64,000 bases of DNA, taken from Prevotella sp. (GTDB lineage: Bacteria; Bacteroidota; Bacteroidia; Bacteroidales; Bacteroidaceae). Made by a program: the position numbers and the translations under genes. Below are positions 7,276-64,000 of this stretch, piece by piece. The notes beneath the pieces were generated by a model. The model saw only the letters and a list, made by a program, of their open reading frames with translations, was not told the DNA's origin and did not search any database. The stretch spans positions 1 through 64,000 of the forward strand of contig JAFUTI010000010.1 in NCBI GenBank assembly GCA_017471465.1, written 5' to 3'. Within the stretch, counting starts at the first letter, position 1, and each line of letters starts with the position of its first letter.

Positions 7276-10029
7276 ATGAAAACCAGACACTTCAGATGCG
7301 GAAGCCTCCGCATCCTGCTACTGCTGTGCCTCATCGTGAGCAAGCAGACAACAGTCCAGGCCGACATCGTCAAAGGGCGCGTGGTAGATGCCGAGACGAA
7401 GGAACCACTGCCCGAAGCCTCGGTGAAACTGACACAGCGCTACGGCGATTACGGCACCATGATTAACAGTCTGAAAGCCGACTCGCTGGGCTGCTTCAGC
7501 GTCTTTGCCAGCGGGCGCGGCAGCATCGAGGTCTCCATGCTGGGCTACTACTCGAAGTCGAAGCCCGTGCTGGCCTTCAGTGACAGCCGCAAGGACACGC
7601 TCGACATAGGGACGATAGAGCTGAAGATGTCGCCGCAGATGCTGAAGATGGTGCAGGTGACGGGCCGCACGAGGCGCTTCACCGTTAAGGGCGACACGAT
7701 TGTCTTCCACCCCGAAGCGTTCCACCTGCAGGAGGGGGCGCGCCTCGACGAACTCATACGCAAGCTGCCCGGCGTGGAGGTGGACGCCCAGGGCAGGATG
7801 TCGTGGAACGGCAAGCCCATCCGCATCACGATGGACGGCGAGAGCTTCTTGGGCGGCGACGCCCTGGTGACGCAGCTGCCGGCCGAGGCCGTAGAGACGA
7901 TCAAGGCCTATAACAAGCAGTCGGAGTTCAGCGAGCGCACGGGACGCGACGACGGCAAGCAGGACATGGTGCTCGACCTGACCATCAAGCCCCGCTTCCT
8001 CGACCGCTGGTATGGCGACGTGAAAGCTGGCTACCAGACCGCGAAATACTACGACGGCGAACTGCTGATGAATCGCCTGTCGAAGGCCGACCCCGTGATG
8101 GTCTTTGCCAACGCCAACAACGTCGACAAGCACTGGCGCCGCAACATGAACGGGAGTACGGCCAACATGGGCAACGGCTTTGGCAAAGAGCACGGCGCGT
8201 CGGCCGGCTATCAGCACAACTGGCAGCGCAAGGCGGGGACGCACGACCTGAAGAACTATTACAGCGTCACCGGCGGCGTGGCCCACGACGACGACCAGCA
8301 GAACGACCACCAGGAGACCGAGAACTACTTCCCCGGCACGGCCGCCACCCGCTCGACCTCGGAGAGCTACCAGCGAGGCCACAAGCTGGAGCCACGGGTG
8401 AAGGCTGACCTGCACTGGGTGCGCGACACGCTGAACACCTTCACGCTGAGCGCCAGCGCAGAGCACACCAGCAGCCGCTCAGACAGCCGCCAGTCTACCG
8501 ACCAGCAGGAAGCCCTCGCCGCCGCAAACGACCCGTATGTTGCGATGCTGTCGCAACTAACCACCTCACACACCGACGGCCAACAAACCACCATGAACAC
8601 CAGAGCCGGCTGGGAGCACTACGTCAAGGACGGCGCCCTCGGCGCCAGCATCACCCTGAACTACCAAGACGGTAAAACCGACGGCCAGACCGACCGCACC
8701 ATCACAGCCCACAACACCGCCTACGCCTCGTCGCACCTGAACCAGACCTACACCGCGCCCTCCACGTCGTTCTCCACCACCGCCGAAGCCCACCATGCCC
8801 GCTGGCTGACGAAGCAATGGATGGTGCAGGCGCAATACGCGCTAACCTACAGCCGCAACCGGAACGACCGCGACTTCATGACCGACGGGGCGGCCGACGC
8901 CGCCAACAGCTACCACAACCTGTACTCGCGCAACGGGCACAGCCTGCAACTCTCGCAGACCATCAACCTAGCGCCCATCCAACTGATGCCGAACGTCAAG
9001 GCCAACTGGCAGCGCGAGAGCCAGGACTACCGGCGCGGGGCGCTTGACACCGCCGCCGTGCGCCGCAGCTTCTTCTTCGACCCCTCCCTGAGTGCCACAT
9101 GGAAACTTAGCAATACCGTAGGCCTCGAACTGAACTACAGCTTCACGACACGCCAGCCCGACATCATGCAAACCATCGGCTACCGCGACCTCACCGACCC
9201 GCTCTTCATCACTGAGGGCAACCCCGGCCTGCGAAACACCCACACCCACGCAGTCAGCCTGACCTATAACATGGTGCTTGCCCGCAGCCAGACCTCGCTC
9301 AGCGCCACCGTAGGCTACAACCGCAGCGACCGCGAGACCACCACCGCCCTCAGCTACGACCCTGCGACCGCCGTCTATGTCAGCCGCCCCGAGAACGTCC
9401 GTGGCAACCATTCGTGGAGTTTCCGCCTGAACCTCGACCAGGCGCTCGGCGACTATTTCCGACTGCAAAGCAACTTCCGACTGAATGCGAGCAAAAGCTA
9501 TGGTTACCTTACTTCTATAGTAACTACTCCCCTCCCTCATAGGGAGGGGGAGGGGGTGGGTCAGCAGTGCGTGGGCTCCCTCACTTCCCAAGAAAACATC
9601 ACCCTATCCCTCGACTACAACTGGCTCAAGGCCACCGTCTTCACCGAGATCAGCGCCGAGCGCCTGCGCTACTCCGCCTCGCCCGGGCTGAACACCACCC
9701 ACTGGAACAATGACTACGGCCTGAGGGCTGAGGCCAGCTACGGCGACTTCGTCTTCTACACCACCCTCACCGAGCACACCAGCCGGGGCTACACCTTCGG
9801 CAGCATGAACCGCGACATCCTCGTCTGGGACGCCGCCGTCGGCTGGAGGATACTGAAGAACAAAGCCCGCCTCGGCCTGGAGTTCGACGACATACTGAAC
9901 AACGAGGACGGACGCCGGAGCCAGCAGACGGCCTACCAGCAGACCACCTCGTGGCACGACTTCCGCCACCATTACGTCGGCATCAGGTTCACCTACCATC
10001 TGGACGCAAAGGAAAAGTTAGTAAAGTAA
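7276..10029 (+). CDS. TonB-dependent outer-membrane beta-barrel receptor
   Basis: 917 residues: signal peptide (1-29), a carboxypeptidase-regulatory-like beta domain (about 33-120, VKGRVVDAETKEPLPEASV), a plug-like region (LDELIRKLPGVEVDAQG through RITMDGESFLGG, about 150-230) and a long beta-barrel rich in alternating aromatic residues. It belongs to the OMP_b-brl_3/PF14905 type rather than the SusC type: no SusD gene is adjacent, so the ligand is unknown. It follows the membrane regulator by 15 nt in the same operon. Near residue 747 an in-frame insertion (TPLPHREGEGVG and flanks) is encoded by a perfect palindrome at 9529-9549, in a predicted loop between barrel strands, where it would be tolerated. 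Confidence 0.9.
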   Translation: MKTRHFRCGSLRILLLLCLIVSKQTTVQADIVKGRVVDAETKEPLPEASVKLTQRYGDYGTMINSLKADSLGCFSVFASGRGSIEVSMLGYYSKSKPVLAFSDSRKDTLDIGTIELKMSPQMLKMVQVTGRTRRFTVKGDTIVFHPEAFHLQEGARLDELIRKLPGVEVDAQGRMSWNGKPIRITMDGESFLGGDALVTQLPAEAVETIKAYNKQSEFSERTGRDDGKQDMVLDLTIKPRFLDRWYGDVKAGYQTAKYYDGELLMNRLSKADPVMVFANANNVDKHWRRNMNGSTANMGNGFGKEHGASAGYQHNWQRKAGTHDLKNYYSVTGGVAHDDDQQNDHQETENYFPGTAATRSTSESYQRGHKLEPRVKADLHWVRDTLNTFTLSASAEHTSSRSDSRQSTDQQEALAAANDPYVAMLSQLTTSHTDGQQTTMNTRAGWEHYVKDGALGASITLNYQDGKTDGQTDRTITAHNTAYASSHLNQTYTAPSTSFSTTAEAHHARWLTKQWMVQAQYALTYSRNRNDRDFMTDGAADAANSYHNLYSRNGHSLQLSQTINLAPIQLMPNVKANWQRESQDYRRGALDTAAVRRSFFFDPSLSATWKLSNTVGLELNYSFTTRQPDIMQTIGYRDLTDPLFITEGNPGLRNTHTHAVSLTYNMVLARSQTSLSATVGYNRSDRETTTALSYDPATAVYVSRPENVRGNHSWSFRLNLDQALGDYFRLQSNFRLNASKSYGYLTSIVTTPLPHREGEGVGQQCVGSLTSQENITLSLDYNWLKATVFTEISAERLRYSASPGLNTTHWNNDYGLRAEASYGDFVFYTTLTEHTSRGYTFGSMNRDILVWDAAVGWRILKNKARLGLEFDDILNNEDGRRSQQTAYQQTTSWHDFRHHYVGIRFTYHLDAKEKLVK
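9529..9549. repeat. in-frame palindrome in the TonB receptor gene
   Basis: CCCCTCCCT-cat-AGGGAGGGG is a perfect 9-bp stem with a 3-nt loop. Together with flanking G-rich sequence to about 9590 it encodes a stretch unlike the surrounding barrel. Confidence 0.65.
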
Positions 10030-12307: not shown

Positions 12308-13324
12308 CACGTTGAGCTGAAGCATCTGGTTCCACCGCACTCCCTTGTCGGTCACATGAATGGCTAAGCCGCACTTGAGTGAGGCATATTGGTCGAGCAG
12401 GAACTGGTAGGAAAGGTCTGTCCGCAGATAATAGGGCGACCGGTAGTAAGCATCGCCCCAATAGTATTTCCCTCTGCCAGCTTCTCCATAATATTGCTGA
12501 CGTCCGCCAATGTAAACCAGTTGGCTCAGGCCCACTTTCTTCCAGCCGACGCCCAGCTCGCTGAGGAAGCCGATGGGCACGTGCCACCGTCGGTCGGTCT
12601 CGCGGTCGCGGTCGAAACCGGCAAGTACGCCTGTTCGCAGGCCTAATGAGTCGAGCAGCCACACCTGCCGCTGGCTGAGGCCGATGTACGGATGCGCCAG
12701 GAAGTTGTCGTGGGGAGCCTGGTGTCTGGTGCGCCATGAGCGCTCCTCCTTGGCATAGTGATAATAATAGCCGTCGAGGCCTGCCTGAAACCATCTGGAA
12801 GTGTAACGTCCCATCATGCCTGCCATGAACTGCTCGCGGACGTTGGCGTCGCGTTTTGCCGTCCAGTCAAGAAAGGCTTCGATATATGCCGTAGGTGTTG
12901 AATAGAGGATGTCGAAGCCTGTCATGCAGGGCCGGAAATATTTGAAGGAGTCCACAATCAGGTAGTCGGGCATCGTCTCCTGCTGCAGACGGCGTGGGAA
13001 CTTGCCTAACAGGAAGCGCACGTCGCGGTGCCGGTACTGGTAATACCCCAGGACGCCGTCGCTCCCCATCTCCGGCTTCGCTCCCGACTCCAGCAGGGCA
13101 TCGTAGCCCATGACGAGCCGGTGCTGGTCGCTGGTGGATGCCACCGACAGCTGAGGCTGCAGATGGATACCGCTGAACGTACCCGACCAACGGTATTGGT
13201 CGTCTCCTTCGGAGTTGTCGAAGAATCCGAAGGCACTGACGCCCCAGTCCACCGTCTGAGCCATTGTCGCCGGGCCGGCTGACAGGGCGAGTAGGAGACA
13301 TACGAATCCTCTTCTTATCATCAT
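12293..13324 (-). CDS. predicted outer-membrane beta-barrel protein
   Basis: 343 residues from the ATG at 13324 (next Met one codon later), with a signal peptide (RRGFVCLLLALSAGPATMAQ). The mature part has many short alternating aromatic strands (for example YYQYRHRDVRFLLGKF and KYYWGDAYYRSPYYLRTDL) and a C-terminal strand LQLNVSFGR ending near an aromatic residue, the usual layout of a beta-barrel. No plug or enzymatic motif is seen. It may be a channel or porin-like protein. The chosen start removes an upstream extension that approaches the -7 box at 13367-13374. The gene is monocistronic, and its 3' end overlaps terC. Confidence 0.65.
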   Translation of the reverse strand: MMIRRGFVCLLLALSAGPATMAQTVDWGVSAFGFFDNSEGDDQYRWSGTFSGIHLQPQLSVASTSDQHRLVMGYDALLESGAKPEMGSDGVLGYYQYRHRDVRFLLGKFPRRLQQETMPDYLIVDSFKYFRPCMTGFDILYSTPTAYIEAFLDWTAKRDANVREQFMAGMMGRYTSRWFQAGLDGYYYHYAKEERSWRTRHQAPHDNFLAHPYIGLSQRQVWLLDSLGLRTGVLAGFDRDRETDRRWHVPIGFLSELGVGWKKVGLSQLVYIGGRQQYYGEAGRGKYYWGDAYYRSPYYLRTDLSYQFLLDQYASLKCGLAIHVTDKGVRWNQMLQLNVSFGR

Positions 13325-14142: not shown

Positions 14143-14693
14143 GGGGAAAGGTCTATATCCGTCAAAAAGGCACGCATCAGGCTCACGTCATCATAGGCTG
14201 CAAGGCCTACGACATCAACCATCCGCGACGCATCGCCCTCTACCTGCTTAATAACCTGCTGGGAGGGCCGGGCATGAACTCGCTGCTGAACCTGTCGCTC
14301 CGCGAGCGCAACGGACTGGTCTATACCGTCGAGAGTTCGATGGTGAGCTATAGTGACAACGGACTGTGGACGGTCTACTTCGGCTGTGACCCTCATGACG
14401 TCAAGAAGTGCTGCCGGCTGGTGCGCCACCAGCTGGATCGCCTGATGGAGAAGCCGCTTAGCCGGTCGCAGTTGACGACGGCGAAACAGCAGCTCAAGGG
14501 TCAGATAGCTATTGCCTGTGACAACCGCGAAAACTTCGCCCTCGACTTCGGCAGGAGTTTTCTGCACAAGGGTAAGGAGAAGGATCTTGACACGCTCTTC
14601 CAGCAGATAGATGCCGTCACCGCCGAAGAGCTGCAGCAGATAGCGCAGGAGTTGTTCGATGCAGAGCGGATGACAACGCTTATTTATCAGTAG
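14139..14693 (+). CDS. M16B peptidase, C-terminal half (R/Y-type)
   Basis: 184 residues matching the second, non-zinc domain of M16 peptidases, with conserved THQAHVIIG, NNLLGGPGMNS and LRERNGLVYTVES (the R...Y element that completes the active site in trans). It starts at the ATG of an ATGA overlap with the upstream half, ideal for translational coupling. It has no start signal of its own. In heterodimeric M16B enzymes of other bacteria these roles lie on separate chains, so a split enzyme could be functional. Confidence 0.75.
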   Translation: MRGKVYIRQKGTHQAHVIIGCKAYDINHPRRIALYLLNNLLGGPGMNSLLNLSLRERNGLVYTVESSMVSYSDNGLWTVYFGCDPHDVKKCCRLVRHQLDRLMEKPLSRSQLTTAKQQLKGQIAIACDNRENFALDFGRSFLHKGKEKDLDTLFQQIDAVTAEELQQIAQELFDAERMTTLIYQ

Positions 14694-56400: not shown

Positions 56401-57630
56401 CTACAAACTGTTTTTGATATCTTCCAGCAAGTCCTCCGGCGCTTCCAGTCCGATACTGAGGCGGACTGTTGTATCTGGGACGGACATCTCGGCGCATTGT
56501 TCGGGTGTGAAGAGTCCGAAGATGGTCGAGGCGGGATGGATGGCCAGCGACTTACGATCGAAGAGGTTTGTGGCACGACGGATCACCTGCAACTTGTCGA
56601 TGAACGCCCAGGCGGCCTCCTTCGATTCCAAATCGATGGTAAAGACGGCACCGGGCAATGGACCAAACTGCGCCTCCGAGATTGCATGGAAGGGATTGTC
56701 CACCAGACCTGTATAGTTCACGCGCTTGATCTCAGACAGTTGCTGACATTGCTGGGCGAGCCACAGCGTAGTCTCTGCCTGACGGCAGAAACGGATGTCG
56801 AGCGTGTCGAGACCAAGAGTCTCCATATAGGCCACTTGCGGTGTCATCAGTCCACCAAGATTAGTCACCAGTTCTGTCTTTACTCGGGCTGTAAAAGCCA
56901 GACGCTTACCTACTTTCTTAGTGCGTGCCTGCAAGACGGACGACGGGTGCTGAGACCAGTCAAACCGTCCGTAGTCAATAAGCAGACCGCCAAGACCTGT
57001 GCCGCCACCGGAGATATATTTCGTGCTGCTGACCACCTCGATATCCACACCAAGTTCATTGGCATGGAAGGTCGAGAACGGCACGACGGTCGTATCGGCT
57101 ATCAGGGGCACACCTTTCTTATGTGCAATCTCCGACAGCACTTTGATGTCAGCCACAAACAGCTGTGGATTGGTGATAATCTCAAAGAACATGGCGCACG
57201 TCTTGTTGTCTATCAGCGCTTCCACCTCCTCGGGCTTCGTGAAGTCCGCGAATCGCGGCTCCACACCGAAACTGCCGAGCGTGTCGCGAATCAGCGAGAC
57301 ACTGTTGCCAAACAGATGCTTTGAGGCTACAATGTTCAGTCCGGCCGCACTCACCGCTGTCAGGGCATAGTGGATAGCTGCCATACCCGTGTTCAGCGCC
57401 GTCACACTCTGTGCACCCGTTATCTGCCTGACGCGCTCCTCCAGATAAGTCACCGTGGGATTGGCGATGCGGGCATACGATGGTGCCATCGAGCGTCCGC
57501 AGAAGGCGTCGTTCATCGCCTTGGCATCGGGGAACTCGAATGCCGCCGTGTAGTACACCGGCATTGAGAGTGCCCCGTATGCGTCAGGCTTCTGATACTT
57601 TGTGGTTAATACTTTCGTTTCGTATTTCAT
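56401..57630 (-). CDS. O-acetylhomoserine sulfhydrylase-like PLP enzyme (MetY-like)
   Basis: 409 residues from ATG 57630 (MKYETKVLTTKYQKPDAYGA); the upstream frame is only heptamer-repeat sequence. It belongs to the Cys/Met gamma-family of PLP enzymes: PLP Lys in VVSSTKYISGGGTG, and ALNTGMAAIHYAL and SLAIHPAST in the expected places. It likely makes homocysteine from O-acetylhomoserine and a sulfur donor. It follows the encapsulin cysteine desulfurase gene, with a heptamer array exactly filling the spacer, and so lies in the same predicted sulfur operon. MetY of Wolinella takes sulfur from a protein thiocarboxylate. Confidence 0.85.
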   Translation of the reverse strand: MKYETKVLTTKYQKPDAYGALSMPVYYTAAFEFPDAKAMNDAFCGRSMAPSYARIANPTVTYLEERVRQITGAQSVTALNTGMAAIHYALTAVSAAGLNIVASKHLFGNSVSLIRDTLGSFGVEPRFADFTKPEEVEALIDNKTCAMFFEIITNPQLFVADIKVLSEIAHKKGVPLIADTTVVPFSTFHANELGVDIEVVSSTKYISGGGTGLGGLLIDYGRFDWSQHPSSVLQARTKKVGKRLAFTARVKTELVTNLGGLMTPQVAYMETLGLDTLDIRFCRQAETTLWLAQQCQQLSEIKRVNYTGLVDNPFHAISEAQFGPLPGAVFTIDLESKEAAWAFIDKLQVIRRATNLFDRKSLAIHPASTIFGLFTPEQCAEMSVPDTTVRLSIGLEAPEDLLEDIKNSL

Positions 57631-57682
57631 AATGCATAATTCATAATGCACGATGCATAATGCATAATGCACAATGCATAAT
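57627..57682. repeat. eight-unit heptamer array between desulfurase and MetY-like genes
   Basis: Units of 7 bp (TCATAAT, GCATAAT, GCACGAT, GCACAAT variants) run from the MetY-like start codon to the desulfurase stop codon (57682-57684) with no other sequence between. Confidence 0.85.
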
Positions 57683-59184
57683 TAGCTGCGCTGTCCCACA
57701 ATCTTGCGGACGGCAATCACGAGTTTGTCCACATCCTCACGGGTGTTGTAGAGGGCGAAGGTGGGACGGACGCTCATCTCATAGCCCAGTGCACGGAGGG
57801 CGGGCTGGGCGCAGTGGTGACCTGCGCGCACAGCAATGCCTTCTTTATCTAATAATGTGCCGGTTTCTGGAACAGGGATGCCGTCGAGGACGAAGCTCAC
57901 GACGCTGACGCGCTGCTTGGGATTGCCAATGAGCGTGAGACCAGGAATCTGAGCCAGTTGCTCGCGGGCATATTCCGTCAGTTTGTGCTCGTGGGCCTCG
58001 ATGTTGCGGATGCCGAGATGACTCACGTAGTCGAGGGCTGCACCCAGTCCGATGGCGTCGGCGACGTTGGGTGTGCCGGCCTCGAAACGTGCGGGCGGCA
58101 CATTGTATTCCGTGCGCTCGATGGTCACGTCCTTGATCATGTTGCCACCACCCTGCCAGGGCTGCATTTTTTCTAACAGGTCCTTGCGACCATAGACCAC
58201 GCCGATGCCGTTGGGACCATAGATCTTATGACCTGAGAAGACGAAGAAGTCGGCTCCCAGCTGCTGTACATCCACAGGCGTGTGGGCGATGGACTGTGCA
58301 CCGTCTATCAGCACGGGGATGTTGTGTGAATGGGCAATGTCGATGATTCGCTTTACGTCATTGATGGTGCCAAACGTGTTGTTCACATGACCCACAGAGA
58401 CGAAGCGGGTGCGGGGCGTGATGATGCGCTCAAACTCCGAGAGGATCAGGTCGCCGTTCTTGTCCGTAGGGATGGCCTTCAGCGTGGCACCCTTCTCGTG
58501 GGCTACCTGCTGCCAAGGTACGATGTTGGCGTGGTGGTCGAGTTCGCTGACGATGACCTCGTCGCCAGGTGTCAGGTATTGTCTGCCGTAGGTCTGTGCA
58601 ACGAGGTTGATACCCTCGGTCGTACCGCGAACGAAGATAATCTCTTCGCTGCTGGCGGCATTGATGAAGCGCTGCACCTTTTCGCGAGCCTCCTCGTAGG
58701 CATCCGTAGCGCGTGCAGCCAACGTGTGGGCACCACGGTGGATGTTCGAATTATAGTGCTTATAGTAATCCGATATCTTGTCGATGACCTGCAGCGGCTT
58801 CTGCGTCGTGGCACCGTTGTCGAGCCATACGAGGTCGTGGCCGTTCACCTGCTGGTTCAGCACGGGAAAGTCCTTCTTGATCTCCTCGGAGTTCAGCGTG
58901 TCAACCTCCTCGTAGTGCAGGCTTTGCAGTTTCTCCGTCTCAGGAATGCCGATGCCGAAACCGTTATCCTGCGGCAGGGTGTGCTGGGGGGCCTGTTCCG
59001 TAGGACGCGATAGAATCGCGTCGTAAAAGACGGACAAGGCCGAGAGGTCCAGCGCCTCGTCGGGAGTCACCGCCTTCCGCTCCTGCTGCAGCTCTTCGGG
59101 GCAGTACTTTTGAGCCACCTGTCTGAGCAGTTCGAAGCCTGGGTCCTCGATGCCGTAACCACTTATGTTTTGAATATTGAGCAT
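57682..59184 (-). CDS. encapsulin-associated cysteine desulfurase (SufS-like)
   Basis: 500 residues. The C-terminal 400 form a SufS-type PLP enzyme: KDFPVLNQQVNGHDLVWLDN, HHANIVPWQ, GHKIYGPNGIG with PLP Lys320, and AVRAGHHCAQP with catalytic Cys458. The N-terminal extension of about 95 residues (with FYDAILSRPTEQAPQHTLPQ and an acidic, Pro-rich part) is absent from ordinary SufS. It resembles the disordered cargo-loading region that targets cysteine desulfurase into family 2 encapsulins. It overlaps the shell gene stop by one base (TAATG), so the two are made together. It removes sulfur from cysteine as persulfide or S0. Confidence 0.9.
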   Translation of the reverse strand: MLNIQNISGYGIEDPGFELLRQVAQKYCPEELQQERKAVTPDEALDLSALSVFYDAILSRPTEQAPQHTLPQDNGFGIGIPETEKLQSLHYEEVDTLNSEEIKKDFPVLNQQVNGHDLVWLDNGATTQKPLQVIDKISDYYKHYNSNIHRGAHTLAARATDAYEEAREKVQRFINAASSEEIIFVRGTTEGINLVAQTYGRQYLTPGDEVIVSELDHHANIVPWQQVAHEKGATLKAIPTDKNGDLILSEFERIITPRTRFVSVGHVNNTFGTINDVKRIIDIAHSHNIPVLIDGAQSIAHTPVDVQQLGADFFVFSGHKIYGPNGIGVVYGRKDLLEKMQPWQGGGNMIKDVTIERTEYNVPPARFEAGTPNVADAIGLGAALDYVSHLGIRNIEAHEHKLTEYAREQLAQIPGLTLIGNPKQRVSVVSFVLDGIPVPETGTLLDKEGIAVRAGHHCAQPALRALGYEMSVRPTFALYNTREDVDKLVIAVRKIVGQRS

Positions 59185-60623
59185 TATTTCTCTACTTTAT
59201 TTCTGTGCTGATAGTCGTGATAGTAACCTACCTCCACGTTTTCGAGTACGGCGATGGCATCGTCGGTGAGGGCGGCCAGTGAGAAGTACTTGGTGAGCAG
59301 GTACGAGGCCACACCGAACTTGTCGAGACCCATCAGACGGGCTGACAGCGACGGAGCGATTTCGCCGGGGATGCCGCTCTGGTGCAGTCCGACAACACCT
59401 TGGTTCTGTTCGCCGGTACGCACGAGGATGATCTTCGTGGTGCCTACGCCGCGACCGGTCAGATACTGACCTTCTACCTCCACCTTGTCCGAAGGAATCA
59501 GGGGCACACCGCGCCACAGGATGACCTTCGTGCCGAAGAGATCGGTGGTCACAGGAGGCACACCACGCCAAGTGCACTCACGCTCGAAGGCGGCGATGGC
59601 ACGCGGATGGGCGATGAAGAAGGCGGGCTCCTTCCAAACGAGGCTCAGCAGTTCGTCGAGGTCGTCGGGTGTCGGTGTGCCATATCGGGCTGTGATGCGG
59701 TAGGCGGGGTTGGCGGCTGCCAGCAAACCGAACTTCTTGTTGTTAATGAGTTCCCACTCCTGACGCTCCTTGATGCTCTCGATCGACAGACGTAACTGTT
59801 CCTCCAACTGGTTGTAGGGGTTGTTATAGAGATCGCTGACGCGGGTGTGCACACGCACCACCGTCTGCAGGGTGTTCAGTGAGTATTCCGTAGGATTCTC
59901 CTCGTAGTCGATATAGGTCTCAGGGATGATGTTATCCTCCTCGTGACCGCTGACCAGATCGATATGCTTCTCGCCGTTGTCGTTTACGGAGGCCTTCAGG
60001 CGCAACTGCTTGTCAACGGCCTTGTTGAACGTCTCGCGGAAGTCGGGCACCTCCTTGATAATCTTAAGCAGTTCCTTCAGTTTCAGTCCGAGGAACACGG
60101 TAGGTGTAATGGCACGTACGCTGACGGTCGACTCCTGCTCGTCCAGCAGGTCGGCCTCGCCGAAGTATTCGCCATCGCCCAGGAGAGCTATCCGTAGCTG
60201 CTCGCCGTGAGGCCCCTTGTTGATGACCTCGGCCTGACCGCTGGCCACGATGAAGAAGCGCTGCTTGTCCTTGCCCTCAGTGACAAAGTATTTGTCAACA
60301 TCCACCTCCTGTGCCTCGAAAGCACTCACCAGACGGTTGACAATCTCGTCGTCGAACTCTGAGAATAGGGGGATGGCTTTCAGGTTCTTCGCCGTAAACG
60401 AGGGCTGTCCATTGACATACGTGATGGGCAGGCGGTCGTTCTTACGGAGTTCCACCTTTGTACGGTTCACACGGAACGTGCCGCCACTGACCTGCACCCA
60501 GGGGAGCAACTTCAGAAGCAAACGAGGAGTGATACTGCCCATCTGCGGGGCGGTCTTGGTAGTGGTCGCCAGTCTTCTGGCGGTAGCAGTGGTCACACTG
60601 CGCTGAAGATTCGAATCTGCCAT
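59184..60623 (-). CDS. family 2B-type encapsulin shell protein
   Basis: 479 residues. An N-terminal arm and segment (1-75) are followed by a cyclic-nucleotide-binding-like domain (about 80-190: LKAIPLFSEFDDEIVNRLVS, FFIVASGQAEVINKG, DGEYFGEADLLDE), then the HK97-type shell core (about 230-470: NPTEYSLNTLQTVVRVHTRV, NPYNQLEEQLRLSIESIKER, PAFFIAHPRAIAAFERECTW and GLHQSGIPGEIAPSLSARLM). The insert defines family 2B. The nucleotide-binding loop lacks the usual phosphate-binding Arg (DEQESTVSV in place of PRxATV), so ligand binding may be lost or altered. It should assemble a cage around the desulfurase. Confidence 0.9.
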   Translation of the reverse strand: MADSNLQRSVTTATARRLATTTKTAPQMGSITPRLLLKLLPWVQVSGGTFRVNRTKVELRKNDRLPITYVNGQPSFTAKNLKAIPLFSEFDDEIVNRLVSAFEAQEVDVDKYFVTEGKDKQRFFIVASGQAEVINKGPHGEQLRIALLGDGEYFGEADLLDEQESTVSVRAITPTVFLGLKLKELLKIIKEVPDFRETFNKAVDKQLRLKASVNDNGEKHIDLVSGHEEDNIIPETYIDYEENPTEYSLNTLQTVVRVHTRVSDLYNNPYNQLEEQLRLSIESIKERQEWELINNKKFGLLAAANPAYRITARYGTPTPDDLDELLSLVWKEPAFFIAHPRAIAAFERECTWRGVPPVTTDLFGTKVILWRGVPLIPSDKVEVEGQYLTGRGVGTTKIILVRTGEQNQGVVGLHQSGIPGEIAPSLSARLMGLDKFGVASYLLTKYFSLAALTDDAIAVLENVEVGYYHDYQHRNKVEK

Positions 60624-60658
60624 AATCTATAAACTATAAACTTTAAACTATAAACTAT
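60624..60658. repeat. heptamer array between tusA-like and encapsulin genes
   Basis: Five 7-bp units (AATCTAT, AAACTAT, AAACTTT, AAACTAT, AAACTAT) begin at the encapsulin start codon and include the tusA-like stop (60655-60657). Confidence 0.85.
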
Positions 60659-60879
60659 TTCTTGATTATTACTTTATGCGTTGTTCCTTCTACGTGTTCT
60701 ACAGAGAGAACGTTATATCCCTGTTCCTTCGCATTGCGTGGAACGTTGTCGAGAGGCTCGCCTTCTGCGAGTAGCACTTCCAGGATGTCACCCTCGTTGA
60801 GTTTCGAGAGCTCAATCTTCGTCTTCACGAAGGTCATCGGGCAATGCTCCTTCGTAATGTCTAATACTTTTGTTGCCAT
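60655..60879 (-). CDS. TusA-like sulfur carrier
   Basis: 74 residues of the TusA/SirA/YedF family. The sulfur-carrying Cys13 is in KEHCPMTFVKTK, where the family consensus is CPxPxxxxK; a Thr replaces the second Pro. The fold's C-terminal strand (YNVLSVEHVEGTTHKVIIKK) is intact. TusA proteins take persulfide sulfur from a cysteine desulfurase and hand it on to DsrE-like or other acceptors. It sits between dsrE-like and encapsulin genes with a heptamer spacer. It likely shuttles sulfur in or out of the compartment. Confidence 0.9.
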   Translation of the reverse strand: MATKVLDITKEHCPMTFVKTKIELSKLNEGDILEVLLAEGEPLDNVPRNAKEQGYNVLSVEHVEGTTHKVIIKK

Positions 60880-60891
60880 AATGTTGTCGGT

Positions 60892-61371
60892 TTATATGAA
60901 TAATGTTTGTCCACCTTCGCTGAGGTTCAGGAACGAGGCCACGCCGAGCACGTCTTTTACCTCCGGAATGAAGTCCTCCTTCTTCAGCCCCAGCACGTGC
61001 ATCGCCATTTCGCACGCGTACATATTGATACCCAGTGCCTTGGCGGCCTCCACCAGTTCCTCCAGCGTGGCCACGTTGTTCTTTCGCATCAGGTAGCGGA
61101 AGATCTTCGGACCTGCCCCCAGGAAGTTAAACCTTGAGGTGGGTGTCACCTTCAGGCCGCCCATCATAAACCCAAAAATCTTGGTAAGCCAGTTACCGCC
61201 AGTAAAGCTTCTGCCTTGTTTCTGCTTGATGGCATCGAGGCCCCAGAACGTGAAGAAGATATTCACCTCATACCCTACTGCTGCCGCGCCCGTACCTAAT
61301 GTAAATACAGCCGTCAGCTTGTCGAAATCGCCACTGAAGGCGATGATGCTCAGTTTCTTGTTTTCTGCCAT
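60892..61371 (-). CDS. DsrE/DsrF/DrsH-like sulfur relay protein
   Basis: 159 residues from the ATG at 61371 (MAENKKLSIIAFSGDFDKLT). The TAVFTLGTGAAAVGYEVNIF, FFTFWGLDAIKQ and YACEMAMHVLG stretches match the DsrE/F-like family (DUF-type DrsH/YchN relatives), with a conserved cysteine in the last motif that may carry sulfur. It is first of the operon, 12 nt before tusA-like, from the -7 box at 61399-61406. It would work with TusA. Confidence 0.85.
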   Translation of the reverse strand: MAENKKLSIIAFSGDFDKLTAVFTLGTGAAAVGYEVNIFFTFWGLDAIKQKQGRSFTGGNWLTKIFGFMMGGLKVTPTSRFNFLGAGPKIFRYLMRKNNVATLEELVEAAKALGINMYACEMAMHVLGLKKEDFIPEVKDVLGVASFLNLSEGGQTLFI

Positions 61372-61398
61372 GTCTTTGTCGGTTAAAAAATCTGGGTG

Positions 61399-61406
61399 CA
61401 AAGTTA
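61399..61406 (-). promoter_or_regulatory. -7 box of the sulfur/encapsulin operon
   Basis: TAACTTTG on the minus strand, 27 nt before the dsrE-like start. Confidence 0.6.
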
Positions 61407-61592
61407 CGGCGAAATCACAATACAGACAATCGCCCGTTTATGGCATTTCGTATACCCATGATATGGTATATCGCAACAAAAGGCCGCAGACACGTCCGTC
61501 AATAGTATCAAGACGGAATAAAAGCCTTATCTCTGATGTCTTTCGGGCGTAATCTACCTGCTTTGGGATAGATTTCGTCCGAATTCGCACTT

Positions 61593-61663
61593 TATTGCGA
61601 TTTTGTTTGGTGGATTAGAATCTTTTTCCTATCTTTGCCGCAAAATCTCAATATATTGCGATT
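61593..61663 (+). promoter_or_regulatory. promoter and repeated operator of the HipBST-like locus
   Basis: TATCTTTG (61630-61637) is the -7 box. TATTGCGATT occurs at 61593-61602 and again at 61654-61663, directly before the ATG, and probably marks the HipB-like binding sites. The interval 61407-61592 shows no other feature. Confidence 0.5.
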
Positions 61664-61885
61664 ATGACCCAGAAAGAGATAGGAGAATCCGTCAGGGAGC
61701 GGCGGAAGAAGTTGGGCATCAACCAGCAAACATTGGCTGATTTGGCTGGTGTGGCGGTTAATACAGTCGTCGCCGTAGAACGCGGTGAAGGAAATCCACA
61801 ATTAACTACGCTACTAACCATCCTTGACACATTGGGACTACAAGCAGATATTAACTTGAAGCACTTGGAGTATGAGAGCATGTAA
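61664..61885 (+). CDS. HipB-like XRE antitoxin/repressor
   Basis: 73 residues forming a single helix-turn-helix (EIGESVRERRKKLGINQQTL, then ADLAGVAVNTVVAVERGEGN) and a short C-terminal tail. HipB proteins bind promoter operators and repress HipA kinases. It overlaps the HipS-like gene by 14 bp. The -7 box and two TATTGCGATT words lie just upstream. The next two genes are a HipS-like protein and a broken kinase, the order of a HipBST system. Confidence 0.82.
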   Translation: MTQKEIGESVRERRKKLGINQQTLADLAGVAVNTVVAVERGEGNPQLTTLLTILDTLGLQADINLKHLEYESM

Positions 61886-62180
61886 GGTTTTTGTTCACAA
61901 CATGGAGGCGGGGCTCTTGCAAGAGACTGACGATAGGAAATATGTCTTTGCGTACAACGTGGACTATCAGGGAGAACCTGTGTGTATTGCTATGCCTGTA
62001 AGACAGGAGCCTTATCGGTCAGATCATCTTTTCCCCTATTTCTTCAATATGCTTTCAGAGGGAGCCAACCGGCAAGTGCAATCGACGTTGCTCCACATCG
62101 ATGAGAATGATGATTTCGGTATTATGTTGGCTACAGCCCAGCATGACACCATTGGAGCCGTAACCGTAAAACCCGTCTGA
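61872..62180 (+). CDS. HipS-like protein (HipA N-terminal subdomain type)
   Basis: 102 residues matching the small N-terminal subdomain of HipA (KVFVHNMEAGLLQETDDRKY, FAYNVDYQGEPVCIAMPVRQ, then HLFPYFFNMLSEGANRQVQS), here a separate protein as in tripartite HipBST systems, where HipS acts as the antitoxin of the HipT kinase. The frame is intact. The partner kinase is broken, so no target remains; the gene may persist as part of a decaying locus. Confidence 0.75.
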   Translation: MRACKVFVHNMEAGLLQETDDRKYVFAYNVDYQGEPVCIAMPVRQEPYRSDHLFPYFFNMLSEGANRQVQSTLLHIDENDDFGIMLATAQHDTIGAVTVKPV

Positions 62181-62182
62181 AT

Positions 62183-62443
62183 ATGGTAGAACTTAATGTA
62201 TGCCCTTCAACTCTGCAAATAGGCTTTTCCACTTATTCGCCTGCGGCCTTGAAATTGCTGTTCGACGGAAGACCTGTATCGCATATTCTGGACTTCGACA
62301 GTCCTAATAACGAGAGTGCGGACAACGAGACATATCTGAAAAATGTCGGGCGCATATCGCTCTCTGGCGTACAACCCAAGGCCACTTTAAAGCGCAGTTA
62401 TTGGCTGTCATACCGATACAGGAGAAGCACATTGGCCGTCTGA
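62183..62443 (+). pseudogene. HipT-like kinase, truncated
   Basis: 86 residues cover only the start of a HipT/HipA-like serine/threonine kinase (about 300-440 residues in full). The signature near the active core, RISLSGVQPKATLKRS (the Gly-rich ATP loop follows in intact members), is present and then the frame ends in YWLSYRYRRSTLAV. The catalytic aspartates and Lys are missing. Sequence continues without recognisable kinase to 62580. I read this as a decayed toxin gene, or a deletion after position 62400. Confidence 0.7.
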
Positions 62444-62490
62444 TAATCAGAGTTTCAATAGTTACTGTCAAATAATCATACGCTGAGGTG

Positions 62491-62507
62491 TCTATCTTTT
62501 AGACAAG
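62491..62507. other. small hairpin in the 62444-62580 gap
   Basis: TGTCTA and TAGACA around a short loop, with CTGAG/CTCAG outside, in an otherwise featureless gap between the HipT remnant and the next promoter. Confidence 0.3.
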
Positions 62508-62580
62508 AATCACTCAGATACCAAATTCGTGGTATTCAAAATGCCATCTGTGTGGGATTGTGGTATTGCAGAGATCGCTG

Positions 62581-62588
62581 TACCTTTG
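62581..62588 (+). promoter_or_regulatory. -7 box of the carrier/E1/JAMM operon
   Basis: TACCTTTG, with TTG at 62558-62560 about 20 nt upstream as -33 candidate. It lies 38 nt before the carrier's ATG. Confidence 0.6.
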
Positions 62589-62626
62589 CACCGTGAAATA
62601 AATCACAATTTTAAACCGACAAAATT

Positions 62627-62839
62627 ATGGCAAAGATTTATGTAAATGGAGACGCGCAGGAAGTAACGCTGCCTCTCAATGTGAGTGAGTTGATCAAGCA
62701 GTTGCTGGTGGAGAATCCAGAGATGGTTTCGGTGCAGGTGAACGAGGAGTTTGCCGAGCGCGAGGACTGGGACAACATCCAGATTAAGGAGGGCGATAAG
62801 GTCGATTTCTTATACTTCATGGGAGGAGGCTCGATTTAG
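62627..62839 (+). CDS. ThiS/MoaD-like sulfur carrier ending GGGSI (HcyS-like)
   Basis: 70 residues with the beta-grasp fold of ThiS/MoaD (MAKIYVNGDAQEVTLPLNVS, then VSVQVNEEFAEREDWDNIQI and KEGDKVDFLYFMGGGSI). ThiS and MoaD end exactly in GG, where the C-terminal glycine is adenylated and thiocarboxylated. Here SI follows GGG, so the last two residues must be removed, a job for the JAMM peptidase at the end of the operon. Wolinella HcyS also carries such an extension. A heptamer array fills the 16-nt gap to the E1 gene. Confidence 0.85.
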   Translation: MAKIYVNGDAQEVTLPLNVSELIKQLLVENPEMVSVQVNEEFAEREDWDNIQIKEGDKVDFLYFMGGGSI

Positions 62840-62857
62840 TTGAGAGTTTAGAGTTAT
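62837..62857. repeat. heptamer array between the carrier and E1 genes
   Basis: TAGTTGA, GAGTTTA, GAGTTAT: three 7-bp units run from the TAG stop of the carrier gene into the ATG of the E1 gene. Confidence 0.75.
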
Positions 62858-63665
62858 GATTGACTTTACTGAAGAACAGATACAGCGATACTCACGCCAC
62901 ATACTGCTACAGGATGTGGGTGTCGAGGGACAAGAGAAGATAATGAACGCACGCGTGCTCGTTGTGGGTGCCGGCGGACTGGGTGCTCCCGTGAGTCTCT
63001 ATCTGGCGGCTGCCGGCATCGGGCGCATCGGTATCGTGGATGCGGATGTGGTCGACCTGAGCAATCTGCAGCGTCAGGTCATTCACTTCACCAAGGACGT
63101 GGGCGTGCCAAAAGTAAAAAGTGCCGAGGAGAAGATCAAGGCTATCAACCCCGATGTGCAGGTGGATACCTACTATGAGTTCCTCGACTCATCGAACGCA
63201 CTGGATATTATTAAGGAATATGACTTCATCGTGGACGGTACCGACAACTTCCCCGTGAAGTTCCTGATTAATGATGCATGCGTGATGGCAGGCAAGCCAT
63301 TCTCACATGGTGGCATCCTGCGCTTCAACGGCCAGACCTTTACGCATCTGCCCGGCACGGCCTGCTACCGTTGCTTCTTCAAGGAGCCGCCTCCAGTAGG
63401 AGCTGTTCCGACGTGCTCGCAGGCAGGAGTACTGGGAGCCATCGCCGGTATGCTGGGCACTATTCAGGCTGCTGAGACGCTGAAGTACTTTACAGGTATT
63501 GGCGAGTTGCTGACCAACCGCTTGCTGACGTTCGATGCCAAGACCATGCAGTTCCGTACCATCAACGTGAAGCAGCGTCCGTCGTGCGCCATCTGCGGTG
63601 AGCATCCCACTATCGACCACCTGATAGATTACGAGCAGGCCGCGTGCGACCTCAAAAACCACTAA
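62856..63665 (+). CDS. ThiF/MoeB-family E1-like adenylyltransferase (HcyF-like)
   Basis: 269 residues of the ThiF/MoeB/HesA family. The adenylation core is VLVVGAGGLGAPVSLYLAAA with DADVVDLSNLQRQ, the zinc cysteines are in GTACYRC and SCAIC, and the conserved catalytic-loop Cys is in VGAVPTCSQAGVLG. It adenylates the C-terminal glycine of the upstream carrier and may add sulfur. There is no rhodanese domain, so the sulfur must come from elsewhere; the cysteine desulfurase/TusA of the divergent operon is a candidate. It is 16 nt from the carrier gene and 4 nt from the JAMM gene. Confidence 0.9.
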   Translation: MIDFTEEQIQRYSRHILLQDVGVEGQEKIMNARVLVVGAGGLGAPVSLYLAAAGIGRIGIVDADVVDLSNLQRQVIHFTKDVGVPKVKSAEEKIKAINPDVQVDTYYEFLDSSNALDIIKEYDFIVDGTDNFPVKFLINDACVMAGKPFSHGGILRFNGQTFTHLPGTACYRCFFKEPPPVGAVPTCSQAGVLGAIAGMLGTIQAAETLKYFTGIGELLTNRLLTFDAKTMQFRTINVKQRPSCAICGEHPTIDHLIDYEQAACDLKNH

Positions 63666-63669
63666 GCGT

Positions 63670-64000
63670 ATGAATATTCCACAGAACATCATAGAAGAGC
63701 TGATAGCACAGGCTCAGAAGGATGCACCTGATGAGTCGTGCGGCTATCTTTTGGGGACTGCTGACGGCAACGTCACGGAGAACTACTGGATGGAGAATAT
63801 CGACCACTCCAGCGAGCACTTCTCCTTTGCACCGAAGGATCAGTTTGCTGCTCTGAAATATGCGCGCAGCAAGAACCTGAAGATCCTGGCTAACTGGCAC
63901 TCGCATCCAGCCTCGCCCTCGCGCCCCTCGCAGGAAGACCTGCGCCTGGCCAACGACCCCACCATCCGCTACGCCATCCTCTCGCTGCTTGACGGCGAAC
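63670..64000 (+). CDS. M67 JAMM metallopeptidase (HcyD/Mec-like), 3' end beyond window
   Basis: At least 110 residues, running off the window. The JAMM zinc signature is complete: Glu in DESCGYLLG, then WHSHPASPSRPSQED, giving HxH and the downstream Asp, with the catalytic Ser-x-x-x-Asp. Mec/HcyD relatives remove residues after the GG of a ubiquitin-like carrier so that the E1 can activate it. It closes the operon carrier-E1-JAMM, and the carrier's SI tail is its likely target. Confidence 0.88.
   Translation, partial: MNIPQNIIEELIAQAQKDAPDESCGYLLGTADGNVTENYWMENIDHSSEHFSFAPKDQFAALKYARSKNLKILANWHSHPASPSRPSQEDLRLANDPTIRYAILSLLDGE

Follow-up and report, generated by a model that had tools for sequence, protein, structure and literature searches.

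The window analysed here is the first 64,000 bases of contig JAFUTI010000010.1 (74,121 bases), from a Prevotella sp. genome of 2.4 Mb that is 63% complete. Its right-hand end carries a cluster of eight genes in two halves: the minus strand encodes MetY, a cysteine desulfurase (CD), a family 2B encapsulin, TusA and DsrE, and divergently the plus strand encodes a ThiS-like carrier, an E1 and a JAMM peptidase (the last three hereafter called the trio). A sequence-only reading had named these genes and had taken the encapsulin for a sulfur store that feeds TusA, then the carrier and finally MetY. The gene set is real, as each gene inside the window is backed by Pfam and NCBIfam matches.

The eight genes and their families

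The encapsulin (59184..60623, minus strand; NF041163, 564 bits against a cut-off of 400) combines a SrpI-like HK97 shell domain (PF19307, 375 bits) with an inserted domain of the cyclic nucleotide-binding (cNMP) type (PF00027, 54 bits), which places it in family 2B; its best PDB matches are 9bje, 9bhu and 6x8m. The insert domain of 2B shells does not bind cyclic nucleotides according to PMC12407261, hence a shell insert that answers to cyclic nucleotides is unlikely. The start of the CD gene (57682..59184, minus strand) overlaps the stop of the encapsulin gene. CD is a SufS-type desulfurase (TIGR01979, 562 bits) and a candidate encapsulin cargo, its best model being the family 2 encapsulin cargo NF041166 (727 bits, below the model cut-off of 800). 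It has an N-terminal extension of approximately 100 residues, with an FG[IV]x[IL]PE stretch (FGIGIPET-like) found in all 18 Bacteroidaceae rows aligned. TusA (60655..60879, minus strand; PF01206, 72.7 bits) carries its cysteine in the motif HCPMTFV, which is present in the TusA of all 37 Bacteroidaceae loci listed. The gene at 60892..61371 (minus strand) encodes a DsrE/DsrE2-like sulfurtransferase (PF13686, DrsE_2, 137.9 bits; its score against NF047629, 69 bits, is under the cut-off of 210).

metY (56401..57630, minus strand; PF01053, Cys/Met pyridoxal phosphate (PLP) enzyme, 268.6 bits) is predicted to encode an O-acetylhomoserine sulfhydrylase of the Wolinella-type clade. Its best PDB match is 3ri6 (343 bits, the next match having 241), and the MetY of a second cluster type gave the same outcome. 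3RI6 is the MetY of Wolinella succinogenes (PMC6595629). In a tree for which the program warns of long branches, 17 cluster MetYs and 3RI6 form one clade (support 100/100) apart from other MetY-type genes; three non-cluster genes, from genomes G005, G056 and G023, belong to the same clade.

On the plus strand, the carrier (62627..62839; PF02597, 51 bits) is of the HcyS type. The sequence-only reading was right about the carrier and wrong about its bare GG end, the true C-terminus being FMGGGSI. The carriers share ...FLYFMGGG or close variants followed by a variable tail, which extends past GGG in 30 of 30 carriers of one set (1 to 40 residues) and in 74/74 carriers with the FMGG motif (95 loci queried, 77 rows, the genomes partly overlapping the set of 30). 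Three carrier rows of presumed Chlorobiaceae are thiamine-type and end in AGGG, and the carrier of locus L197 stops at GGG. The carrier is followed by a ThiF/MoeB/UbaA-type E1 (62856..63665; PF00899, 274 bits), which we take to fill the role of HcyF in the Wolinella naming, and by the JAMM metalloprotease (63670..64000, on to 64062 of the contig), presumably the counterpart of HcyD. The latter gene is cut by the window end, since its open reading frame (ORF) runs 62 bases further, and its family assignment rests on PDB profile matches (2kks, 2kcq and JAMM1). The JAMM residues E22, H77, H79, S87 and D90 are invariant in 19 of 19 sequences; the cluster has the two marks of the HcyS type, a carrier tail beyond GG and a JAMM protein with an intact motif. 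That the carrier might be the ThiS of thiamine synthesis was rejected, because genomes G075 and G014 have a separate ThiS that ends exactly in GG, beside genes that by eye resemble thiE and thiG. No second ThiS was matched in G005, the third genome searched, and the cluster carrier was the only ThiS match in the window's genome at its 63% completeness. The carriers of L055, L060 and L065, from different genomes, have unusually long tails that begin alike (QDKESIEYRF...), which would fit a repeat inserted into the gene's 3' end.

Conservation, co-occurrence and a shared palindrome

A PF19307 search of 301 Bacteroidaceae genomes, many of which are incomplete, as are many in the other sets used here, matched 38 genomes, 37 of them over the cut-off, giving 37 loci (36 besides the window). 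All eight genes stand together in 30 of these, within 6.3-8.1 kb (gene calls under 45% identity for metY, 60% for E1 and 55% for CD were dropped; L057, with metY cut by the contig end, and L040, with CD in two pieces, were counted as complete). In L040 (genome G292) the desulfurase is split into two frames at 8097-9556. At least five gene orders occur, such as metY-cysK-dsrE-tusA-encapsulin-CD-carrier-E1-JAMM and luxR-metY-cysK-carrier-E1-dsrE-tusA-JAMM-encapsulin-CD, and 23 of the 30 complete loci have all genes on one strand; the succession dsrE-tusA-(JAMM)-encapsulin-CD is constant in all 30. The seven incomplete loci comprise three without metY and trio nearby (L033, L048, L056), three without the trio nearby (L042, L045, L051) and L044, a contig of 4 kb. 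Among wider encapsulin relatives (the best 80 of 452 confirmed loci), 50 loci contain all eight genes; many of the other 30 reach a contig end, and six lack the trio despite more than 9 kb on the dsrE side (L083, L085, L092, L098, L115, L124). These 80 are titled nearly all Prevotella, Prevotellaceae, Xylanibacter or Bacteroidales, many come from the ruminant gut, and the records include Prevotella aff. ruminicola Tc2-24, Prevotella sp. khp7 and Xylanibacter ruminicola D31d.

The two halves also coincide at the genome level. With a JAMM profile built from 19 sequences, 35 of the same 301 genomes have both encapsulin and a strong JAMM match, 2 the encapsulin only, 4 JAMM only and 260 neither (Fisher p = 8e-39, a value that ignores kinship and so overstates independence). 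The two encapsulin-only genomes, G209 and G230, are 78% and 86% complete, respectively; the JAMM-only genomes are G028, G039, G217 and G236. The halves are separated yet both present in five genomes, with the trio on another contig in G023, G049, G066 and G171 and 13 kb off in G199. Within a wider set of Bacteroidales genomes, 7/295 had an encapsulin match above the cut-off and 10/223 a strong JAMM match, and five of the ten JAMM genomes (G330, G422, G443, G510, G517, taken to be within the 295) have no encapsulin match; apart from the window's own genome, JAMM is present in 5/6 order-level encapsulin genomes, the exception, G537, being 65% complete. Weak JAMM matches (E 3e-6 to 4e-4; 4 in the family, 3 in the wider sample) are not included in these counts, nor is a single encapsulin match below the cut-off in each sample. 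The co-occurrence expected by the sequence-only reading was thus borne out from encapsulin to JAMM (35 of 37) and partly failed from JAMM to encapsulin (encapsulin lacking in 4 of 39 JAMM genomes of the family and in 5 of 10 of the wider sample). A chance neighbourhood is ruled out by the recurrence of the cluster in different orders and by the co-occurrence where the halves lie apart.

A pattern search located two palindromic operator candidates between the halves, ATACCCATGATATGGTAT at 61452..61469 on the dsrE side and ATACCAAATTCGTGGTAT at 62518..62535 on the carrier side. The pattern ATACCA-N6-TGGTAT (core TACC-N8-GGTA) occurs with at most 2 mismatches in 46/46 divergent dsrE-carrier intergenic regions (the window's and those of 45 named loci), where single-base shuffles gave a mean of 0.6; part of this conservation reflects the close kinship of the 46 loci, for which the shuffles make no correction. 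The window has three matches to the 8-base core where 0.32 are expected, the third at 13180, away from the cluster. In the separated trios L076, L077 and L078 the core precedes the carrier by 86-90 bp; it also stands upstream of cysK in 5/6 clusters of presumed Chlorobiaceae and upstream of a Wolinella-type metY of G005. In 72 wider loci, 41 of 65 exact core sites lie within 350 bp upstream of the query gene (no expectation was computed), and many wider loci, including L162, L163 and L197, have no exact core site. Genome-wide, longer sites number 7 in the window's genome (G000) and 11 in G075, with 3 and 5 for reversed-pattern controls; of 12 site loci viewed, two lie upstream of separate cysK genes (127 bp in G000, 94 bp in G075), two upstream of a predicted secreted protein and at least three inside genes. 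We liken the palindrome to NarL 7-2-7 sites, and a LuxR-type gene is present in 17/37 loci; that a regulator of this type binds the palindrome is a guess. Palindromes before predicted secreted proteins, near the cluster or away from it, were seen at 14371 and 17429 of L049, at 66960 of contig C35 of G000 and at 81929 of contig C1 of G075, and may mark genes for the uptake of sulfur compounds within the same regulon.

Synteny, genome-level co-occurrence and the shared operator candidate together uphold the earlier view of the two halves as one unit. Its two-halves layout is likewise correct; it passed over a helix-turn-helix gene, a HipA N-terminal domain and an ORF without family match between the halves (61664-62443). 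These lie in a stretch of about 1 kb, where 43/46 loci have 160-285 bp; L096 and L107 are likewise long there, and in these two and the window one palindrome site stands on each side.

Sulfite reductase as a probable alternative sulfur source

Six of the nine JAMM genomes without encapsulin have a sulfite reductase (Sir), and G443 has only its TusA-type domain near the trio; the locus of G039 has TusA with cysE and cysK, and G217 was seen as contig-end pieces only. The trio occurs with sulfite reductase and/or its TusA domain in L069 (which additionally carries a phosphoadenylyl sulfate reductase), L073, L192 and L194-L197. A Sir with a C-terminal TusA domain stands beside HcyS-type genes in L069, L073, L194, L195, L197 and L200, apparently a dedicated hand-over of sulfide or persulfide in Bacteroidales. 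With the L073 protein as query, full-length Sir-TusA was found in 8/301 Bacteroidaceae genomes, all 8 with JAMM, and TusA was detected in 39 of the 301, namely the 37 encapsulin genomes, G028 and G236; the search missed the TusA (39%) of G039. TusA accompanies the carrier pathway in both the encapsulin and the sulfite-reductase form.

The exchange of the two sources is best seen by comparing L197, with the order cysK-carrier-metY-E1-dsrE-tusA-JAMM-Sir-TusA, to L162, with cysK-carrier-E1-dsrE-tusA-JAMM-encapsulin-CD: metY apart, encapsulin and CD occupy the place of sulfite reductase. In L192 the order is carrier-E1-dsrE-tusA-JAMM-Sir, in L194 Sir lies upstream instead, and in G363 the encapsulin and sulfite reductase sets are both on one contig. 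Since encapsulin-CD stands where sulfite reductase stands, the caged desulfurase is likely to be a sulfur source for the same relay. Sulfate-reduction genes are not an evident sulfide source, as no sulfite reductase match was obtained in G000 (63% complete) or G075 (99% complete), the search matching TusA only. Such exchanges beside the same relay offer natural pairs in which free and caged sulfur supply can be compared.

Proposed destination of the caged sulfur

We think it fairly probable that the encapsulated desulfurase can take the place of sulfite reductase and supply sulfur to a TusA/DsrE-HcyS-MetY relay, which makes homocysteine via protein-bound sulfur. CD, probably inside the 2B shell, would draw sulfur from cysteine as persulfide or S0, with loading and storage as in the known family 2 systems. 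TusA, with DsrE as partner, would take over the sulfur and carry it to the HcyS-type carrier, TusA being common to both sulfur sources. By homology to Wolinella, JAMM would trim the variable carrier tail to expose glycine, E1 would adenylate it, and sulfur transfer would yield a C-terminal thiocarboxylate; the Wolinella-type MetY would add the latter to O-acetylhomoserine, and JAMM would free homocysteine. The encapsulin-desulfurase would be a sulfur-source module able to replace the sulfite reductase-TusA of other Bacteroidales, with some genomes having both, and the net result would be the passage of cysteine sulfur to methionine without cystathionine and without free sulfide. We infer cargo loading, sulfur storage, the direction of sulfur flow and the use of carrier sulfur by MetY. 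The linkage and the apparent shared switch suggest for the sulfur of the cage a protein-bound route towards methionine. The locus thus proposes a specific chain of acceptors and a definite end product.

A bolder version we hold to be possible rather than probable. Here the cage would be a plug-in source swappable with sulfite reductase, from which sulfur would pass to TusA/DsrE, HcyS and MetY without ever being free; TusA/DsrE would dock at the shell or enter it to tap its sulfur store. Cage, relay and cysteine synthase, perhaps also uptake, would be under joint control of a LuxR/NarL-like regulator that acts at TACC-N8-GGTA.

Both halves are known separately, as 2B-CD encapsulins and as the thiocarboxylate pathway. 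The sequence-only reading knew of no description of the combined locus, and our search found no work joining encapsulin with the thiocarboxylate pathway in the open literature (supplements and most subscription journals lay outside it). The HcyS/HcyF/HcyD/MetY pathway of W. succinogenes resembles the cluster in its tailed carrier, E1, JAMM and a MetY in the 3RI6 clade. That pathway reportedly runs through HcyS-Ala, HcyD, HcyF and Sir, with sulfate-reduction genes supplying sulfide; in the cluster, by contrast, the putative source beside the trio is the encapsulin-type desulfurase, accompanied by TusA and DsrE. The thiocarboxylate is described as the sulfur source in W. succinogenes (PMC6271081). 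With the family 2A SrpI/CyD system of Synechococcus elongatus the cluster shares a SrpI-like shell gene adjoining a desulfurase with an N-terminal extension; it differs in its 2B shell with the cNMP-type insert and in the attached TusA, DsrE and full thiocarboxylate gene set, and the targeting motifs reported there are not plain here. The S. elongatus encapsulin is upregulated in sulfur starvation, the fate of the sulfur being left between carrier and storage, and knockouts of shell or desulfurase showed no growth defect (PMC8049743), so phenotypes may be conditional. The 2B shell with CD is a described operon type (199 operons), whose named accessory genes are serine acetyltransferases and rhodaneses, TusA being absent from the main text (PMC8346489).

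The proposed relay rests on gene content, conservation, co-occurrence, module exchange, carrier tails, phylogeny and the shared site; several observations weigh against it. The Synechococcus cargo motifs LARLANEFFS and AASPYYFLDG are not plainly present in the CD of the window or in the aligned Bacteroidaceae rows (the CD of L159 has LASRIYNEF and YYFLREP). Nine JAMM genomes have no cage; the carrier pathway is therefore the common element, and the cage a probable but optional source of its sulfur. Nor are the sources exclusive, as 6/8 Sir-TusA genomes also have the encapsulin. metY is missing from the cluster in L033, L048 and L056 of the Bacteroidaceae and in the order-level L159, L162 and L164. 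Conversely, at least 23 of the 260 genomes with neither encapsulin nor JAMM have a close homologue of MetY (E <= 1e-100), a lower bound given that the cluster MetYs of G014, G081 and G165 were missing from that search; one, in G122, is 88% identical to the MetY of the window, on a contig of 3.5 kb, and in G005 and G056 the homologue is next to a MalY-like gene. The metY gene alone is therefore no proof of carrier use, and MetY as a marker exclusive to carrier genomes was rejected, because genes of the same clade occur in genomes without JAMM. G000 and G075 each have two other, conventional MetY-type genes elsewhere, thus the cluster cannot be assumed to be the only homocysteine route. In presumed Chlorobiaceae (f136; the family name is a guess), encapsulin-CD stands with cysK and has no HcyS-type carrier or strong JAMM adjacent; a thiamine-type ThiS and E1 are nearby in 4/6 loci, and in the three genomes tested the JAMM matches are only weak (E about 1e-10). 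These 2B encapsulin-CD clusters, L165-L170, have cysE, luxR and MetY-type genes in most cases.

The first alternative, unlikely as we judge it, makes encapsulin-CD a store of sulfur or a sink for cysteine in its own right, only co-regulated with a carrier pathway that uses free sulfide without a direct relay. In its favour, the presumed Chlorobiaceae and two loci of family 2A have encapsulin-CD without the trio, and JAMM occurs without encapsulin; the shared operator could also account for the linkage by co-regulation alone. Against this, TusA was detected only in encapsulin or Sir-TusA genomes, the missed G039 apart, and the Sir-TusA fusion together with the positional exchange points to a dedicated protein relay.

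Ranked after it, and rather improbable, is a carrier that feeds cysteine synthase, the unit then making cysteine rather than homocysteine, or both. The model is Mycobacterium, where CysO feeds CysM; the CysO/CysM/Mec+ system likewise puts a ThiS-like carrier, an E1 and a JAMM at the service of a PLP enzyme. cysK lies beside the carrier in L070, L159, L162, L164 and most one-strand g14 loci, cysK-like genes occur in 24/37 clustered loci, and the palindrome precedes separate cysK genes in G000 and G075. The PLP partner is nevertheless MetY in all 30 Bacteroidaceae loci with the trio beside the encapsulin (not in the order-level L162 and L164), cysK is absent from the window cluster, which has metY, and cysteine synthesis fed by a desulfurase would amount to a futile cycle. 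One cysteine synthase of a cluster, that of L162, was compared with PDB and is CysK-like: the 60 best of its 105 matches are cysteine synthases, O-acetylserine sulfhydrylases and beta-cyanoalanine and cystathionine beta-synthases, with no CysM among these 60, judging by their names. A CysM-type partner is thus not supported.

That the cluster MetY is a cystathionine gamma-synthase working with MalY, the trio serving another thiolation, is very unlikely: in G005 and G056, both without JAMM, a same-clade MetY neighbours a MalY-like gene, and malY is near 6/37 loci (L041, L050, L055, L058, L064, L065), yet the stretch searched has no malY at 31/37 loci, window included, and the closest solved enzyme is the thiocarboxylate-using MetY of W. 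succinogenes.

Two minor observations concern the surroundings of the cluster. Its flanks resemble, as named by eye, pyrG, purF and asnB on one side and speA, aroK and topA on the other. In L155, a record titled Alistipes and possibly misbinned, a 4 kb contig opens with an encapsulin 96% identical to that of the window.

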